NCBI GenBank assembly: GCA_002224055.1
Contig: AZLU01000112.1
Location: 66,714-130,713 of the forward strand
Direction: 5' to 3'
Origin: Pezizomycotina sp. ARF18
Lineage: Eukaryota > Ascomycota
DNA: 64,000 nt
Shown: piece by piece, positions 21,313 through 51,629 of the stretch
Layout of the letters: every line of letters starts with the position of its first letter
How positions within the stretch are numbered: position 1 is the stretch's first letter
The notes under the pieces: model-generated
What the model saw: the letters and a program-made list of their open reading frames with translations, nothing else
Databases searched by the model: none
Told to the model about the DNA's origin: nothing
Position numbers and translations under genes: made by a program

Positions 21313-23790
21313 TTACTGCCTGACGAAATATCTGACTCCACCGACTTGTCCGTTCATGTCTCCTGGTGTGTTGTTAACTTGGAAAATTTGGTATTCCCAC
21401 GGAGCGTGAGCGATCTTAGTCCTCTCGTACTCAGCTTGCCGGAAAAGTGCGCCGATATGGTAGGATCATCTCCACCATGAAGAACAGAATTGATATAACC
21501 GAACCCGGATTGGTGCCTGTTGGCCCCTCAACCCGGTGGCACTTTGCGTTGCCCTATTTCCAGCACCCGAGGTGTAACGTACCGGATTCCCGCGTGAGCA
21601 CTAGCCGGTCGCGGTTGCGGTTTCTTCAACGTCTTCCAGATATGGCGATTTCCATGCTCGTCGTAAGTCTCTGTGACGTCGTACTTGTCCCTATCGATGA
21701 GAATGGTCGGCGTACTATGGGAACTTGGCCGCTTGAAATTCGAAGCGCCAACGGGAAGACGACTTGTAATGTTGTTGGGATTGTCGCGCCAGAGCTAAAC
21801 TCCTGACGCTTCTAGCACCAGATAGTCTATCACGTTCCGAAGTTGTTATCTTCTTGTACATTCTCCCATCTGAGCCTCGAATGTACTTAGCATTCATGTC
21901 ATCGGCCTTGAACGTTTGGTACCAGTTACCGCGGATGTCCTGAACAAAGTCCGTCGGCGGGTATCGGCTGGCTGTCCGCAGGAAGAGCAGTCGGACCTGT
22001 AGGAGGAGCAACCAGAGCTACAGGTTGTTAACTGACTTAGGGCGACGGTGCTCGAAGTGTTGGACGGATGGAGCTTCGAAGCTGGCTTTCCGTATTGTTT
22101 TATCGCAGGGCTCTTAGGTTTCTGCTTTGACCCCTTTATCGGTCTTTCCGGATTTGTTTTTCTTGTCTTCACCTCGCTTGGTTAGAATCGCCCCAGCTGT
22201 CATTGTTCGCGGCCGCAGCATCGTTTCCTCCTGAACTCCAACCGTCATTGTTGTTATTATTGTTGTCATTTGCGGCTTGTCCCAACCGTCATTGTTGTCA
22301 TTGTTGTCATTGTTGTTGTCGTTCACGGGCTGTCCCAGCCGTCAGAGTTATTATTATTATTATTATTGTTGTCATTCCCAGAAGCTCCCCAGTTGTTGCC
22401 ATTATTGTTTTTTAGGTCTCCTTTTCTTTACCTTTGCCTTTATTCTTCTCTTTTTTCTGCTGCTTTTATTCGTCTTATTGTTCACATTGTTATTCCTGAG
22501 TTCTTATTATTGTTGTTGTTCGCAGCCGGCGCATCCAACTATTATTAGCGCAGCACCATCGTTCTTTGTTCGCAGACGAATCGCCCCATCCACCACTATT
22601 GTCGTTGTTACCACACTGTTGCCTATCTGAGAAGCACTTCCCCAACCGGCATTGTCGTCGTTGCCACTCCGTTTCCAAGCTGAGAAGCGCCGCCTCCCCA
22701 GCCGTTGTCGCTGCGGCTTATTGGAGCCGCTCTTCTTCGAACCGCTTCCATTCTTGCCTTTATTCAGCTACTTCCCCAGCCGCTTATCGCTCTTCGCTTT
22801 TATTGGAATTGTTTCCCCAGCCATCGTTTTCACTCGATGCAGCAGCGGCCCCGCTATCACCCCAACCACCACTGTTGTTATTATTATTGCCGGTGTCGCC
22901 GCCAGAGTTGCCCAGCCGTCATTATTATCGTTGGAGTTCTTGTTGGCGTCGTCTCCCCGTCCGCCGTTATTATTTCCACCACTTCCTCCATTGTTCCTGG
23001 AGTTGTTGTTGGTTGAATCACCCCATCCTTCATTATCATTAGAGTTATTGCTGTTGTTGTTCGAATCACCCCATGCTCATTATTGTTGGATTATTGCGGT
23101 TGTTGTCGTCGAATTACCCCACCTCCGCCGTTGTTGTCGTTAGAATCACCCCATCCTCCCCCTCCACTATTGTTATTCGCATCATTGCCCCAGCCATCAC
23201 CGGCGTCGCTTTTCGCTTTGTTCGACGAAGTTGCCCCAGCCGCCACCAGAGTTGCTCTTGGCTTTATTCGAAGAGCTACCCCAGCCACCGCCGTTTTTGC
23301 CGCTCTTGTTCGATTTTTATCGCCCCAATCGCCGTTGTTGCTCTTCGCTTTCGTCGACCGGTTACCCATCCGTTGTTGTTGCTGGCTTTGTTATTACCCC
23401 AGCCGCCGTTGTTACTTTTTCAAACCAAGAAAGAAAGACTCAGCTATCCGTTCACACAAGATAGACAATTCAAGGAATACTTTTTGCTTCTTAAGAAAAC
23501 TCGATCACTCACCTCTGCTTATCCGCCCCTCCGTCTTTCGCCTTGATAATGGTGCTCGGCGCGTGGTGAACGACGACAGTGGGGTACTTGCAATCCCTAT
23601 CTTTACAGTGATACTGGTAACCGTGGCGGCACTTGTGGGGGTTATTCTTATCGTCTTTGCTTTTCCCAGGACGATCTTGGTGGGGACCTCGAGACCGTTT
23701 TCACTCCGGGAGCTACCTTGCGGGATTCTCGCCGGACGCCGACGAACCCTTCTTGGGGGCGTCCGCGAACCTGATTATGGGGATGCACAT
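21313..23790 (-). CDS. Uncharacterised Gly/Asn-rich protein with ~20 Gly-Trp (GW/WG) repeats
   Basis: I do not recognise this protein. Its order is as follows. A short N-terminal domain with a Cys/His-rich motif (CRHGYQYHCKDRDC, then KYPTVVVHHAPSTI; about 23630-23530) is followed by a donor site near 23513 (GTGAGT). A long low-complexity region (about 23410-22260) then carries a WG motif every 12-20 residues, in contexts such as NNGGWGNN, SGGGWGN, GGGGWGDS and DGWDS. A conserved-looking C-terminal domain (DFVQDIRGNWYQTFKADD, YIRGSDGRMYKKITTSERD, DEHGNRHIWKTLKKPQPRP) ends in QAEYERTKIAHAPWEYQIF...GGVRYFVRQ at 21313. The shared minus-strand reading sense of all three parts argues for one gene of about 750 residues. 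The N-terminal Met is uncertain, and many frame jumps make the repeat part approximate. Confidence 0.6.
22260..23410 (-). repeat. GW-repeat tract inside the uncharacterised gene
   Basis: About twenty TGG codons flanked by GG-rich codons recur every 35-70 bp, seen on the plus strand as CCCCA/CCCCAGCC. They are separated by Asn/Ser/Asp/Lys-rich spacers, some repeating a K-A-K-S-N-x-G-G motif. Confidence 0.8.
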
Positions 23791-25198
23791 CTTTGGCGAT
23801 TTGCCATTGAGGTGGGGAAACGGTTTGCTGGTGCTTTCTGTGAGACTGAGGTTTGCTGTACGATAGATAGTAAAAGGGATTCAGGGTCGACAATCCTGAG
23901 ACCTGAAGTTCAAGTGCAGTTGCTATCGAAGTGGATAGAGGTAAAGTACTTGAGTAGGTAGTGTTTGTCTTTTTGCAGTTCCTGGTTGTTTGAATATGTG
24001 AAGAGAGTGGAGAGATTCTTTCTACACTGGTAAGGAATTTTAAGATCAAAAAATTGCTTAAATCCTCAAGTGGAAGTATCTGAGTTTTTTTTTTTTTTTT
24101 TTTTTTTTTGGCTTGATCAATTGAAGTCGTAGTAGTACTTGTTTGCCTTGAACGAAATTTCACTACTTACTCACTTAATAATTTAGCTTCCTTCGCGATG
24201 TTTTCTAAGCATGGTATTACAAGTATATATTCTTAAATATAAACTTGTCGCTTCGCCAGTCTTGGTTAACTACATGTCTATATGCCTCTGAAAGCATTTC
24301 GTAAGGAGATACATATAGTGTTTTGGCCCATAGCGGCCTTGGATCACTGCCATGAGTTCTTCTCAGAGACTATTGTTTATAAACCGAATCTATCCAATTT
24401 GTAGAGGAGGTTACGATCGAATATCCTCCAGATTTAGTGCTGTGTAAACTGGAGGTTACATTAACAGCCAGCTAGCCATTTCGTAACAGGGTCAAAGATC
24501 CCTTGACATTTTATTAGAACATCCGCAGAATAACATGCTGCATAGGCGTTTGTGTGGTGCGACTACTCCTCGAGGAGGTAGAACTCATCTAGTAAACGTT
24601 TTTAGCTGATATAAATTCTAACTTATTCGATTTTACCCTAGCTATCATTAGAGAGATAAACGGTCCATATAAGGAGGGCGAATTTACACAATGAAAAGAA
24701 TGGAAGTAGTGAAAAACAAACGCAAACATTGATACATTCAACATCGCTCCTTTCCTTGTATAGTAGTAATGACACTCTCAAGTCTTTCAAAAACCCTATA
24801 TTTGTTCCTTAAAGCACCCGTCTCGTTACACCAGACCGAAAAATGTAATAATCAATTAAAGAGCAGGAAAGACAAAGGGAAGACAAGTAAAAGAACCGCG
24901 AAAAAAATGTCTAATCAACAAAAAGGTGTATATCATGCATGCTACTGTACTAGTATAGTGGCTTTTATTTTTGATGGTTTTTCCCTTTTCTGAATTTTTT
25001 TTGTCTCTTTAATTTCTCTATAATGTTCCCATATATATTTATATAAGTTTGTATCAAAAGGCCTTATACTTCTTCCTTTCGGTTTATCCTAATCCAGAGG
25101 TAATATGCAGTGAACAACAGTAACAGTATTATTATTATTGTTGTTGAGTGTGGAACAGATGAAGAAACCTGACCAGCAATCCAAATAAGCTGCTAAAT
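23791..25198. other. Intergenic region between GW-repeat gene and STE23
   Basis: AT-rich and without a recognisable gene. A T tract of about 23 lies at 24086-24108, upstream of the GW-repeat gene, and an ATT/GTT microsatellite at about 25128-25146 lies in the 3' flank of STE23. Confidence 0.55.
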
Positions 25199-28100
25199 TT
25201 AGCGCGTACTCGAACCGGAACCTGAGGAGGCGGTGGGCATCTCAATAGCCCGCTTTTTCAAAAGCTTCGCCTCAGACTCTTCCATCTCGCTAAGATCCCG
25301 CCGGCTTCGGACCACGGCTCAAGGTCATGGAAGACTTCCAACCGCTAACGTCATCGATGTAGATGCGAGATTTATCGTCCCTAGCAGTCGTAGAATCTCC
25401 TCCATAGCCTTGAGTTGCGGGAGCAGCTGGTCCATAGCTACCTTGCCTTGGTCGACAACGTCCTTGATGCATCGTCTTAACACCCTTCTCTTTGAGATAA
25501 TTGCTAACTTCCTTCGTCAAAGCATCCGTAGAACGGATATCCACGGATCCAAAGCGCTTCTGGACCTCTTCAATGGTGGGAGGCGGCGAAACCGCTGTGC
25601 GAAGAACTGCAAAATGGCTTGGTAGATTTGGTCATCCGCCGAGGTCGCCGGCTCGGAGCTCTTCTTGGCCACTGACTTTGAGATGCACGGAGAGCTTTGC
25701 CGCCGCGGAGACTTGGGAGAAATGTACGTTTCGTAGAACTCCTTCATATCAGTCTGGTGAGGCTCTTGATATTCTCTACGTCATGGTCAATTTGCAGGAA
25801 ATCATACTGCTCGCTGCCACATGCCACCACAGCCTACTTGACTCCTGGTTAAGGTTCTTTAAGCTTTCTAAGAGTTTGGTGAGGACGCTCTGCTTGTGCT
25901 TCTCGAAGGCCTCTTCCGTCATTCCCAGTCAAGGGACAGGAATGCCTCGATTCGCTTCTCAAGGTATTCGCAAGAACGTTCTGACTGAATGAGGACCCTG
26001 TAGCCCATGGTGGTAGACTGCATCAATGTTCCAGTGAAAACGACGTAGCCTAGTTGTTCCTTCGTGCGTAACTGATCGAAAGCGCGCCTGTGATAAAGTA
26101 GAGATTTATGGTAAGGAACGGGATTCCAAGAGCAGCGAATCTACGATAGAACGGATCGAAACAAAGTACTCACTCATGTGTAATCTGGCTCCAAAGCAGA
26201 AGTCGTGCCTTATTTCCCTGTTCTCGTTACTCCCCAGGTGAAGCATATACTCGATTGCATTGTTCACGTTCTTCGTATCCTTGAGGTCCCTCTCGTATGT
26301 GTAGTTAAATCCTTCGGGCAGCAGGACACAGCGACGTAGGAACCACTCAGACCTGGTAGCGTGACAGGCTTCAGAATAGTTTGAATCTGGTGAAGCAAAT
26401 TCAAAGAATCCTAGAATGAGAAAAGACTTAGTTCGTGCTCAGTTTCTGGAGCGGATATATCGATACAAAACATACCTCTTTGTAGAGATTTCCATGAACT
26501 AGTCCTTCGATCTCAAACTTCCTAATCCTGTTCCACAATCTCGAACCTCCTCGACACCAGACAATTTTCTAGCTCGGCAAGAACCTCGTCATTAAGCCAT
26601 TTCTTTTCGCCAGCAGCCACCTCATGAACTCCGGACCATGAGGTACGGAGTACCGAGCTCCCAATTTTTGTAAGCTCGCACGAGCTTCTCCTTTAGAACA
26701 TCCCACCGTCCTCTTTAACCTCTAGCTCCCTCATGGCCTGCAGAACCTTAACAAGTAGAACGGACATCTTGTCATTGTATCCTCCAATCTCGAGATCGAA
26801 GCCAAGCATATTCGGCGCAAGATGGTAATAAAGACCGGCTATTTCGGCATCATAGGAGTATTCGTGTAGTGCATCTTTTACAAGTTCGCAAAACATGCGC
26901 GAAATGGCGTAGTCGCGAGGAGTCGCGTATACTCTTGGAGTTCGCAGCGTGAAATAGACATTCGCTTTTGGAGCCCAGAACGTGTCATCCTTCTTGAACC
27001 AAAGCCGGACATCTGGGCTATTCCTCAGGAGAGCCGGAACCTTCTGCTTAACGGGCACCTCCTTCCGGACAACTTCAAAGTTTGTGGGATGAACGGATTG
27101 GGATGTGGCAGGAAAAGTCCTTCAGGCCCGTCGATTTTGATATCGAAGTTCGGGATCGGCTTGCCCTCGAAAGCGGCCTTGAGCATCTTTATGTCCTCTT
27201 CTGGGATGTCCTCGATGGTATATTCAGTCCCGTACCAGCGCTCCTTGTGTGTCCACTCACGGCCCTCCGGTAGTTCGGGGGTGGTAATTGCCAGGCGGAA
27301 TTTTTCCGGGTGGAAATATTGCAACGCCTCTTGAATGATCGCTGCGTCGAACTTGCGGATTTTATTATCTGACAAGAGGAACTCTCTTGGGAGTTCTTGC
27401 TGCATAGTGTTTGCCATGCCACTTGCGAAGCTGCCCGCGTTGGTGCTCTTCTGCTTGTACTTGAACTCAACCTCGGTCATAGCCATTAACTCTTTGACAA
27501 CCCATTCCTGGGGTGGTGTGTTTCGCAAAATATGGATGTACCTAAAGAGTAGAGCAGTGACTTGTGGAATCTTCTTGATCCCTTGCGTGGTAAGGCGAAT
27601 TGAGACCTGGAAAACACCGCATCCACCACATATACGCATCTGTCCAGCGGAAAGCGACGTGGCAAGCCCTGCAGATCGAAGAACAGATAGGATTGAGCCA
27701 GGGCCTTCATGGCCAATGAGGTGCCCGATATATCGAGACGGTTGTGTGTCATAGAGCGGGTCTTCATCCATGAAGGGAATGTATACGTAAGGGAACGGGT
27801 TTCCATGACTGGTTTTGAGTAGTATTGTTTCTGCAGCGAAGTTAGATTATATTGCACCTTCCAGCACTGGCTAAATGTAAAAATAGGCCTAGGGAACTTA
27901 TTTACCATCAATTCATTACTCGTCAGCGGGTGACCTTCGAAAGCAGGAACAGGCAAGTCTTTGTTCTTGATATCAGAGAATAGTTCTACAACCCATTTCT
28001 CCAGTTCGTCCAGTGATTCTATAGATATGATGACAATAAGAGTTAGCTTTGCTCTTCCAAAAGATCGTATTATTTTTCTTCCTAGATTGATCTTGCAAAA

Positions 28101-29040
28101 TTTCAAGCCGAGGGTACACATATCGGATATAGAGAAAATACATACCTCGACCCAACACAACTAATTTCATTAAATTTCCAGAGTAAAATCGTTCGTGAAA
28201 TTTCACAAATCTTTCCCTTACATCGACGCCTTGGCTTTTAGGCGAGTCCCTGAGGTCTCAAGGTTTCCAGTGCTGAATTTGCTCCATGGATGCTTCGGGT
28301 TACTGAGAGCTTTGCTTAGCTGATAATTCCGGTAAACATCTTGCTGGATGTTCTTCTTGTGCTCAGAATCGACAGCGTTCAGCTCCCTGTCAAGCCGTTG
28401 GGGTCGAACAGAGGTGCAATGAAAAATTGAGAAAAGCGGTCCAGAGCGCCGTACAAGTTTTGGTGACCGATTTCGAAATAATAATTTGTAGATAGGGATG
28501 ATGTATAGGCGTTTGATGAACCGGAGTGATGGGCAAGGTACGCCATATAATCATTCTCACCAGGATACTGTTTAACGTAAGGGAAGATAGAGAATTATTT
28601 CATGTATTAGCATATCTAGTTAACTTTCTGACAATTTTAATGTTGAACGGAAAGGAGAGAACACGTCGTCATCGTCTCCACGAAATTCCACAATCGTGAT
28701 AAGTCTTTCATAACGGCTATGATCTGCCCAAAAAAAAAAAAGGGGGGGGGGGGGAAAGGTGGGGGGAATATATTATACCTTCTCTGTCCCTAAGAACAAA
28801 ACATGCTCAACGGCATGAGCCTGGCCAGGTAATTCTACATCATCACACATGCTGCCAACCTTACGTCCAACGCCGCTGAAGATTTGTCGGTTTGAGCATC
28901 ATGAACTATTAGCACTTCAACCTTATTGGGCAGACGGATGACACGGTATTGTCTGTCATCGAGCAAGGGCTTTTCGAGATCTTCCGTAACAACGACAACA
29001 TTCCCTTCCCGCGGCGGGGAAGCTTTTTCACCGGAGCCAT
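25199..29040 (-). CDS. STE23: Ste23 / insulin-degrading enzyme M16 zinc metallopeptidase
   Basis: A large M16A peptidase; in yeast the homologue processes a-factor, and in animals it is insulin-degrading enzyme. From the N-terminus: [35 protein letters not shown], then the inverted zinc motif HAVEH (H-x-x-E-H, about 28815-28830) in [16 protein letters not shown]. An intron follows at 28568-28778, then [20 protein letters not shown] and TNYYFEIG. Middle and C-terminal parts include [38 protein letters not shown] and [13 protein letters not shown], ending [13 protein letters not shown] at 25199. Several introns and frame jumps interrupt it. The start is uncertain: 29040 is the nearest Met before the conserved block, but that Met is in another frame. 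A 146-codon frame farther upstream (29198-29635) could be a leader exon or chance. Confidence 0.92.
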
Positions 29041-49261: not shown

Positions 49262-51629
49262 ATGGACGGAGCTTCAGTCTACTCACTGGGAGGTATCCTC
49301 TCGCCAGATTATGAGAATCAGGAGGAAAGCCGTGGAGCTATCCAGAAAGCTCTGGCAGACTTCGTCCTCACCTTCAGGATTGGGAATTCGTTCATATACA
49401 GGTAAAAGGGTGAAAATTTTTCATTATCGGTTGATGTTTTCATCATTACTGACAACGACGGCACAGAGACCAACTCCGAGAGAACGTCCTTATAAAACGA
49501 TACTACATCGAAGTCGACATTGCTCACCTGATAAGTTACAACGAAGAGCTCGCACACAGGCTATCGAATGAGCCATCTGAAGTCCTTCCACTGGTAAGAA
49601 CCTTCAATATAGTGAGAATCCTATCAGAAAGCTATTTTTGCTAAAAGAAAATTCCCCGCAGTTCGAAACCGCCGTCAGAGAATGCGCCAAACGCATCGTA
49701 TTTCCCGGCTCCGACGCCGCAAAGTCGCTACCGGAGCACCAAGTCATCCTCTCCTCGACGGCCAGCCAGATTTCGATACGCGAGCTCGGAGCAAACTACA
49801 TCTCGAAGCTCGTCCGCATCCCGGGTATCGTGATCGGCGCGTCGACGCTGTCTTCGAAGGCGACGAAGCTGCATATTATGTGCCGTAATTGCCGCCACAA
49901 CGTCAGTTTACCGATAACGTCAGGCTTCTCGGGCGTTTCGCTTCCCGAGTGTGCGGGCGCGAACGGCAGGCGGGCGAGGATACGGATAAGTGTCCGATGG
50001 ATCCATATATTGTCGTTCACGAGAAGTGCCAGTTTATCGACCAGCAGGTGCTCAAACTCCAGGAGGCTCGGATCAGGTACCCGTCGGAGAACTTCCCGGC
50101 ATATTCTCCTGTCCGCGGACAGGTACCTCACGAACAAAGTCGTTCCGGGATCGCGGGCTTCCGTTATCGGTATATACTCGATCTACGACAGGAAAGGTGG
50201 GAAAGGTCCGGCCTCGGCGGTCGCGGTTCAGAATCCGTACCTGAGGGTCGTTGGGATACAGACGGACGTGGACCATACTACGAAGGGTGCGGCCATGTTT
50301 ACGGAGGAAGAGGAGCAGGAGTTTTTGGAGCTGTCGAGGCACCCCAGGCTCTACGAAATCTTCACGCGCTCGATCGCGCCGTCCATTTACGGTGGCGACG
50401 ACTTGAAGAAAGCGATCGTGTGTTTACTCATGGGTGGTTCGAAGAAGATACTACCCGACGGGATGAAGCTCCGTGGTGACATCAACGTACTGCTGCTTGG
50501 AGACCCCGGAACGGCAAAATCGCAGCTTCTCAAGTTCGTAGAAAAAGTTTCCCCGATCGCAATTTACACGTCCGGTAAAGGTTCCTCCGCGGCCGGTTTG
50601 ACGGCTTCCGTGCAGCGCGATTCGCAGACCAGGGAATTCTACCTCGAAGGCGGAGCAATGGTCCTCGCCGACGGCGGCGTCGTCTGCATCGACGAGTTCG
50701 ACAAGATGCGCGACGAGGACCGTGTCGCGATTCACGAAGCTATGGAACAGCAGACGATATCTATCGCCAAGGCCGGTATCACTACGATCTTGAACTCGAG
50801 GACGTCGGTTCTCGCAGCCGCGAATCCCATATTCGGCCGCTACGACGATATGAAGTCCCCGGGGAGAATATCGACTTCCAGACTACGATTCTGTCCCGTT
50901 TCGATATGATCTTCATCGTCAAAGACGAACACAACGACCAGAAGGACAGGACGATGGCGAGGCACATTATCAACATCCACATGGACCGGAAGCAGGAGCA
51001 AGCCGCAGCCGCCGCTGGCGATATCTCAATCGAGAAGATGAAGCGGTACATCACTTACTGCAAATCGTAAGCTATCTCTAATACCTAACCCTTAACTCCT
51101 ATAGAAATAAGTATATCCTAATTTAAATTTTTCCCACCAGCCGCTGCGCCCCACAGCTCTCCCCGAAGCCGCCGAGCGCCTCTCCTCAAACTTCGTCTCC
51201 ATCCGCTCCGAAGTCCGCGAAGGCGAACTCGACTCCAACGAGCGCTCCTCGATCCCCATTACGGTCCGCCAGCTCGAAGCCATAATCCGCATAACGGAAT
51301 CCCTCGCCAAGCTTTCTTTATCCTCCGTCGCGACGGAAGAGCACGTCGACGAAGCCATGCGCCTGTTCCGCGCGTCGACGATGAACGCCGTCACGCAGGG
51401 TGCCGCAGCCAGCGGTGAACTGATGGAGGAAGTAGGGAAAGTGGAAGCGGAGCTCAGGAGGAGGCTGCCGATAGGGTGGAGCACGAGCCTGGCGACGCTG
51501 AGGAGGGAATTAGTTCAGGGGAAAGGTTACAGCGCGAGCGCGCTGGAGAGGGCACTTATGGTCATGCAGAGGAGGGAGACGATAAGCTTTAGAAATCAGG
51601 GGGCGCAGGTCTTCAGGAGTGGCGTTTGA
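49262..51629 (+). CDS. MCM5: DNA replication licensing factor MCM5
   Basis: A subunit of the MCM2-7 helicase. Exons: 49262-49401, 49467-49593, 49662-51066 and 51141-51629, with introns 49402-49466, 49594-49661 and 51067-51140. The N-terminus is [39 protein letters not shown] follows. Zinc-binding pairs appear as CRNC and later C...C in [15 protein letters not shown]. The AAA+ core has [19 protein letters not shown], Walker A GDPGTAKS (50499-50522), Walker [10 protein letters not shown] (about 50684-50710) and arginine finger SRFD (about 50895-50906). The C-terminus is [17 protein letters not shown]. Frame jumps occur near 49950, 50080, 50120, 50170 and 50860; the first three scramble the zinc region when read naively. 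Length after repair is the usual ~720 residues. Confidence 0.96.

Follow-up and report, generated by a model that had tools for sequence, protein, structure and literature searches.

The minus strand of the analyzed window (the whole 64,000-nucleotide stretch of a contig of Pezizomycotina sp. ARF18, to which all positions refer) carries a locus with its ATG at 23790 and its TAA at 21315-21313 that is best read as a genuine and unusual GW-repeat gene, present in one copy, whose two ends were not recognised. These limits bear out the coordinates 21313..23790 of the original prediction. Along the direction of transcription, the following features were distinguished:

23716..23790, minus strand: probable start of the coding sequence, with the ATG at 23790 and 25 open codons (MCIPIIRFADAP...ASGENPAR), followed by frame breaks
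23513..23658, minus strand: part of exon 1, containing the Cys/His-rich motif PHKCRHGYQYHCKDRDCKYPT; found once in the genome; codon score 11.8, best of the six frames
23415..23512, minus strand: intron of 98 bases, GTGAGT...AAG, its acceptor chosen by phase and by the absence of a stop
22193..23414, minus strand: GW/WG array in which 23 Trp codons extend from 23401 to 22195, with at least 11 net frame changes
21751..21972, minus strand: C-terminal piece 1, 74 aa, RYPPTDFVQDIRGNWYQTFKADDMNAKYIRGSDGRMYKK..., with a fold prediction and no sequence match
21531..21794, minus strand: C-terminal piece 2, 88 aa, in another frame than piece 1; found once in the genome, without a family match
21313..21465, minus strand: C-terminal piece 3, 50 aa, SYHIGALFRQAEYERT...GGVRYFVRQ, ending at the TAA; likewise found once in the genome and without a family match

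The frame breaks that follow the start piece were placed by the codon model at 23715 and 23666, while C-terminal pieces 1 and 2 overlap by 44 bases, with the frame change lying somewhere within the overlap. Positions 24085-24109 of the window, approximately 300 bases upstream of the gene start, are 25 consecutive T (read as A on the gene strand). The host assembly scanned comprises 46.36 Mb in 408 contigs, and fungal-type genes were present in it (e.g. Fungal_trans, Pfam).

The Cys/His-rich motif that had been predicted at the N-terminus is present in the open exon as CRHGYQYHCKDRDC. Four AG acceptors were tried for the intron that follows; two of them leave CRHGYQ in phase with the first Trp codon, and only the chosen one of these two is free of stops. 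The resulting in-phase 98-base intron, which joins the Cys/His motif to the first Trp, provides support for this gene structure, not proof, the chance of phase agreement alone being one in three. At the other end of the gene, fold prediction lends weak support to a compact C-terminal domain, as had been proposed: piece 1 (74 residues) folded, in a prediction made without an alignment, as four strands plus one helix at a mean pLDDT of 69, but for another C-terminal piece no structure was predicted (pLDDT 54).

Between these two ends, the 1270 bases of the array (22160-23430) contain 45 TGG triplets, 23 of which were listed as Trp codons on the minus strand, from 23401 to 22195. A possible TGG-to-CGG change at 22957 was left out of this count, and 22 of the 23 codons were picked for carrying TGGGG or GGNTGG. 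The motif GGNTGGGG, whose count needs no prior choice of Trp codons, occurred 12 times in the array; 1000 shuffles that preserved dinucleotides contained it 0.43 times on average and never more than 3 times. TGGGG and GGNTGG occurred 17 times each (shuffle means of 4.07 and 3.21, and maxima of 11 and 10, respectively). The approximately twenty GW/WG repeats reported earlier for this strand were thus recovered, as 23 Trp codons and a GGNTGGGG count far above that of the shuffles. Gly precedes Trp at 17 of the 23 sites, follows it at 17, is found on both sides at 12 and on at least one side at 22, a pattern that arises partly by construction. Consecutive Trp residues are separated by 11 to 19 residues in 19 of the 22 intervals, the shortest measuring at least 32 bases (about 11 residues), and by approximately 26, 37 and 49 residues in the three others; the original prediction had given 12 to 20 residues.

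The composition of the tract follows the phase of the Trp codons. At 2 to 4 codons from the 23 listed Trp, a test that uses residues outside the Trp selection, 101 of 138 residues were Gly, Asn, Ser or Asp in the Trp phase, compared to 13 and 17 when either of the alternative phases was read, in agreement with the Gly/Asn/Ser/Asp-rich tract described before. When the immediate neighbours were included, the values were 142 of 184 in the Trp phase vs. 18 and 20 of 184. Around the 22 unlisted TGG triplets, the same four residues filled 19 of 132 positions when the phase of the triplet was read and 93 when the phase after it was read, indicating that these triplets are parts of Gly codons. Trp is almost the sole aromatic residue near the repeats, as only one Phe and no Tyr were found among the 184 residues lying up to four codons from it. 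Variability at the three positions of the codon before Trp was 0.67, 0.68 and 1.69 bits, and of the codon after it 0.43, 1.09 and 1.77 bits, the third position varying and the first and second being conserved in both; these adjoining codons had also helped in picking the Trp, and the third-position contrast was absent at the following codon (1.41, 1.41 and 1.35 bits). Reiterated, spaced Trp with Gly neighbours in low-complexity G/S/N/D sequence were therefore found at this locus, and we read the array as a repeat maintained as protein.

Searches for relatives of the gene gave no match that could be taken as one. Pairs of GGNTGGGG separated by 10-40 bases were matched 41 times in the genome (22 forward and 19 reverse), vs. 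27 times (12 and 15) for the reversed-pattern control. Five of the 41 matches fall in the GW locus, and elsewhere never more than two were linked; the pattern was strict, and looser arrays would escape it. No paralogue of four gene pieces was detected in the host's own genome, where the sole second match had an E value of 2.01. The Pfam scan of the Cys/His exon, the C-terminal pieces and one array piece returned nothing above the cut-off, its best models (CD36, E 0.21; a conotoxin model, E 0.58) being sub-cut-off matches that were read as chance. Likewise, no meaningful match was obtained for four pieces among PDB sequences (one at E 1.6), and no true relative for one piece in prokaryote genomes or for three pieces in IMG/VR. 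The single IMG/VR match, 52% identical over 21 query residues (E 1e-4, a value for candidate stretches only), was dropped as a chance match: VKDGGADKQ-like letters were common, but the protein lacks the Cys/His motif.

The Trp-bearing frame is not continuous in this draft sequence: Trp codons occur in each of the three frames, and none of these runs through the array. In 11 of the 22 intervals between Trp codons the length is not divisible by three; the remainder is 2 in ten of them, as the loss of one base would give, and 1 in the other. Exon 1 likewise carries frame breaks. According to a frame-tolerant codon-usage model trained on other host genes, exon 1 was weakly coding (339 bases, two breaks), and the array and the C-terminal part both scored 0. 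The codon score of the proposed frame was the best of six in all four open pieces (11.8, 2.1, 3.4 and 4.7), which had been chosen beforehand as open and were scored with a penalty for stops. The model is loose: it scored the strand opposite MCM5 as coding (41.6 vs. 140.0 at the middle penalty), and the break counts it produced for an M16-type peptidase (9 to 13, depending on the penalty) were for that reason not trusted. A gene on the plus strand was also considered, given that the frame 23017-23958 is open there, as is expected opposite a G/N/S/D-rich strand, but it scored 1.5 vs. 11.8 for the minus strand in the Cys/His exon. Codon usage by itself does not make this rejection firm, since the frame-tolerant scan of 23500-23800 alone favoured the plus strand (3.3 vs. 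1.4).

One-base breaks were also observed in conserved genes of the same window, by arithmetic on profile-match coordinates. In the MCM domain of MCM5 (gene at 49581-51626, plus strand), profile position 183 ends and position 184 starts at base 50858 in different frames, and in the middle domain of the M16-type peptidase (25199-28160, minus strand) the match passes from profile position 118 to 125 one base short, near 27050-27066. Such breaks within conserved domains make assembly error likely in the array as well, and gene models derived from this assembly need caution. With at least 11 in approximately 1.2 kb, breaks are more closely packed in the array than they are in MCM5, which has 3 over 1884 coding bases; we ascribe the difference to a poor consensus within repeats, gene decay being the alternative.

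The explanation we favour, for which we put the chances at about even, is that this fungal gene, present once in the genome, codes for a scaffold inside the cell that works by multivalent Trp docking or self-association. Such a protein would have a short Cys/His head, possibly metal-binding, an intrinsically disordered Gly/Asn/Ser/Asp spacer with approximately 23 evenly spaced Trp, and a tail formed by a small C-terminal domain for which no family was found among the searches run. The Trp residues would act as weak, repeated "stickers", docking into pockets of partner proteins or sticking to each other, so that several partner molecules could be gathered by the scaffold into one assembly or granule. 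The excess of the array motifs over shuffled sequences, the phase-specific composition, the singularity of the locus in the genome under the strict pattern used, the in-phase intron and a start without a signal-peptide-like stretch favour this reading; the broken frames, the null result of the codon model in the array and C-terminal part, and the density of breaks count against it. We infer the disorder of the spacer, the intracellular location and the multivalent docking, and Argonaute is one possible partner among others.

The same broken frames could mean that the gene has decayed and its protein is no longer made, which would account for the 11 or more net frame changes within approximately 1.2 kb and for the lack of coding signal in the array and C-terminal part. 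We consider this improbable, given that MCM5 and the M16 peptidase carry one-base breaks in the same window, that 10 of the 11 array breaks have the form expected of single lost bases, and that open flanking pieces, splice signals and a stop are all present. Still further down in probability is a secreted adhesive or cell-wall repeat protein, the structural alternative admitted by the original prediction. Gly-rich repeats do occur in adhesive and cell-wall proteins, but the likely start (MCIPIIRFADAP...) showed no signal-peptide-like core (best Kyte-Doolittle means of 0.33 over 15 residues and 1.82 over 9, measured at a start that could in truth sit in an upstream exon), none of five pieces has a strongly hydrophobic stretch, and the pieces scanned gave no Pfam match above the cut-off; this alternative is accordingly disfavoured. 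A repeat peptide precursor processed by Kex2 was rejected on the absence of a signal-peptide-like start and of regular dibasic sites in the short Trp-phase contexts.

Second in rank, after the intracellular Trp-sticker scaffold, comes an Argonaute-binding GW platform, in which the Trp residues would dock in PIWI pockets and tether small-RNA complexes, as modelled by analogy on GW182, plant NRPE1 and fission-yeast Tas3; we regard it as possible, though doubtful. The number of Trp, their Gly neighbours and their spacing agree with it, and the AGO-hook-like architecture proposed earlier stands to this extent, the Trp/Gly spacing in a G/N/S/D tract matching that of GW platforms, but the link to Argonaute itself is a putative one. 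The host genome contains Argonaute, Dicer and RdRP genes, in line with the frequent occurrence of RNA interference in filamentous ascomycetes noted earlier. At least seven Piwi-domain matches were found (one strong on contig C6, three on C216, two on C193 and a weak one with two stops on C95), the genes on C6 and C216 being well matched, together with at least 19 RdRP matches, grouped into five clusters across four contigs, and at least three Dicer_dimer matches on two contigs. One RdRP match (contig C8, 248174-249712, minus strand, profile positions 1-517 of 582) contains 11 in-frame stops (4 TGA, 5 TAG and 2 TAA), the highest count among the 19 RdRP matches listed, and represents either a decayed paralogue, read-through introns or a bad stretch of the assembly. 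Two RdRP-type clusters on the minus strand of contig C195 (31859-33331 and 37049-38716), lying within approximately 4 kb of each other, are possibly a tandem pair.

Against an Argonaute platform, the Pfam Ago_hook profile (PF10427) had no match in the genome at E values up to 10, a result that is to be read without a positive control, since control genomes had no match either, and with regard to the frame breaks of the array, which would lower any match. In addition, the host Argonautes differ at four pocket positions of Caenorhabditis elegans ALG-1. Joint mutation of these positions (P733, F802, K803 and E838) is reported to leave the GW182 partners of ALG-1 unbound (PMC5147811). With positions set relative to the DVTHP and YRDG motifs, in human numbering, their equivalents were K, R, L and Y in the Argonaute on C6, and K (read before a frame break), S, L and Y in that on C216, vs. 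K, S, L and Y in Neurospora QDE-2 and P, Q, K and E in Arabidopsis AGO10. At the equivalent of human R688, which we take to be the third-pocket position, H was found in the C6 Argonaute and R in the C216 one. The residues of the animal-type pockets 1 and 2 were thus absent from both readable host Argonautes (C6 and C216, to which the comparison was confined, the Piwi matches on C193 and C95 lying outside it), and judging from these residues docking of the animal type in pockets 1 and 2 appears unlikely.

Fungal Argonautes may nonetheless hold GW proteins in other ways. In a 2025 survey, their GW sites are described as "remarkably variable", the third pocket is reported to show conservation in fungi, other, unknown sites are considered possible, and GW proteins are reported as binding fungal Argonautes (PMC12477606). 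A tether of filamentous ascomycetes with about 23 Trp, whose Argonaute partner would lack the animal-type pockets 1 and 2 and be bound by numerous weak interactions at the third pocket or at another one, is conceivable, although we think it rather unlikely.

Long reiterated WG/GW tracts are typical of the plant NRPE1 and SPT5-like platforms, and the array resembles them in this respect, but the open pieces of the protein that were scanned with Pfam contain no polymerase or SPT5 domain. Tas3, a component of the fission-yeast RITS complex that works with Argonaute and binds Ago1 through a GW-type motif, provides a fungal precedent, although it has few GW motifs compared to the 23 Trp of the array. 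A further precedent is Gwo1 of Cryptococcus, reported to form a P-body complex with Ago1 (PMC6643885); the likeness to both proteins, as fungal proteins that work with Argonaute, was drawn by description only. With GW182/TNRC6, whose sites are reported to consist of at least two Trp with ten or more residues between them (PMC9262622), the protein shares many Trp, Gly neighbours, a G/S/N/D-rich sequence and distances of approximately ten or more residues. It differs from them in that its open pieces (Cys/His exon, one array piece and C-terminal pieces, scanned with Pfam) have no RRM, UBA or other TNRC6 domain, in that its Cys/His motif and C-terminal pieces match nothing, and in that the Argonautes of its host lack the pocket residues checked.

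Judged by titles and the beginnings of abstracts, full-text searches of an open-licence library brought up no paper on a GW-repeat Argonaute partner from filamentous ascomycetes, an absence that applies to these searches and does not prove that none has been published. If the protein is not an Argonaute partner, it would represent a Trp-spacer design serving another purpose, and a warning against calling Argonaute-binders by GW repeats alone. If it is one, it would be a missing piece of the silencing machinery of filamentous ascomycetes, and would offer a natural test of how GW docking evolves without the conserved animal pockets.
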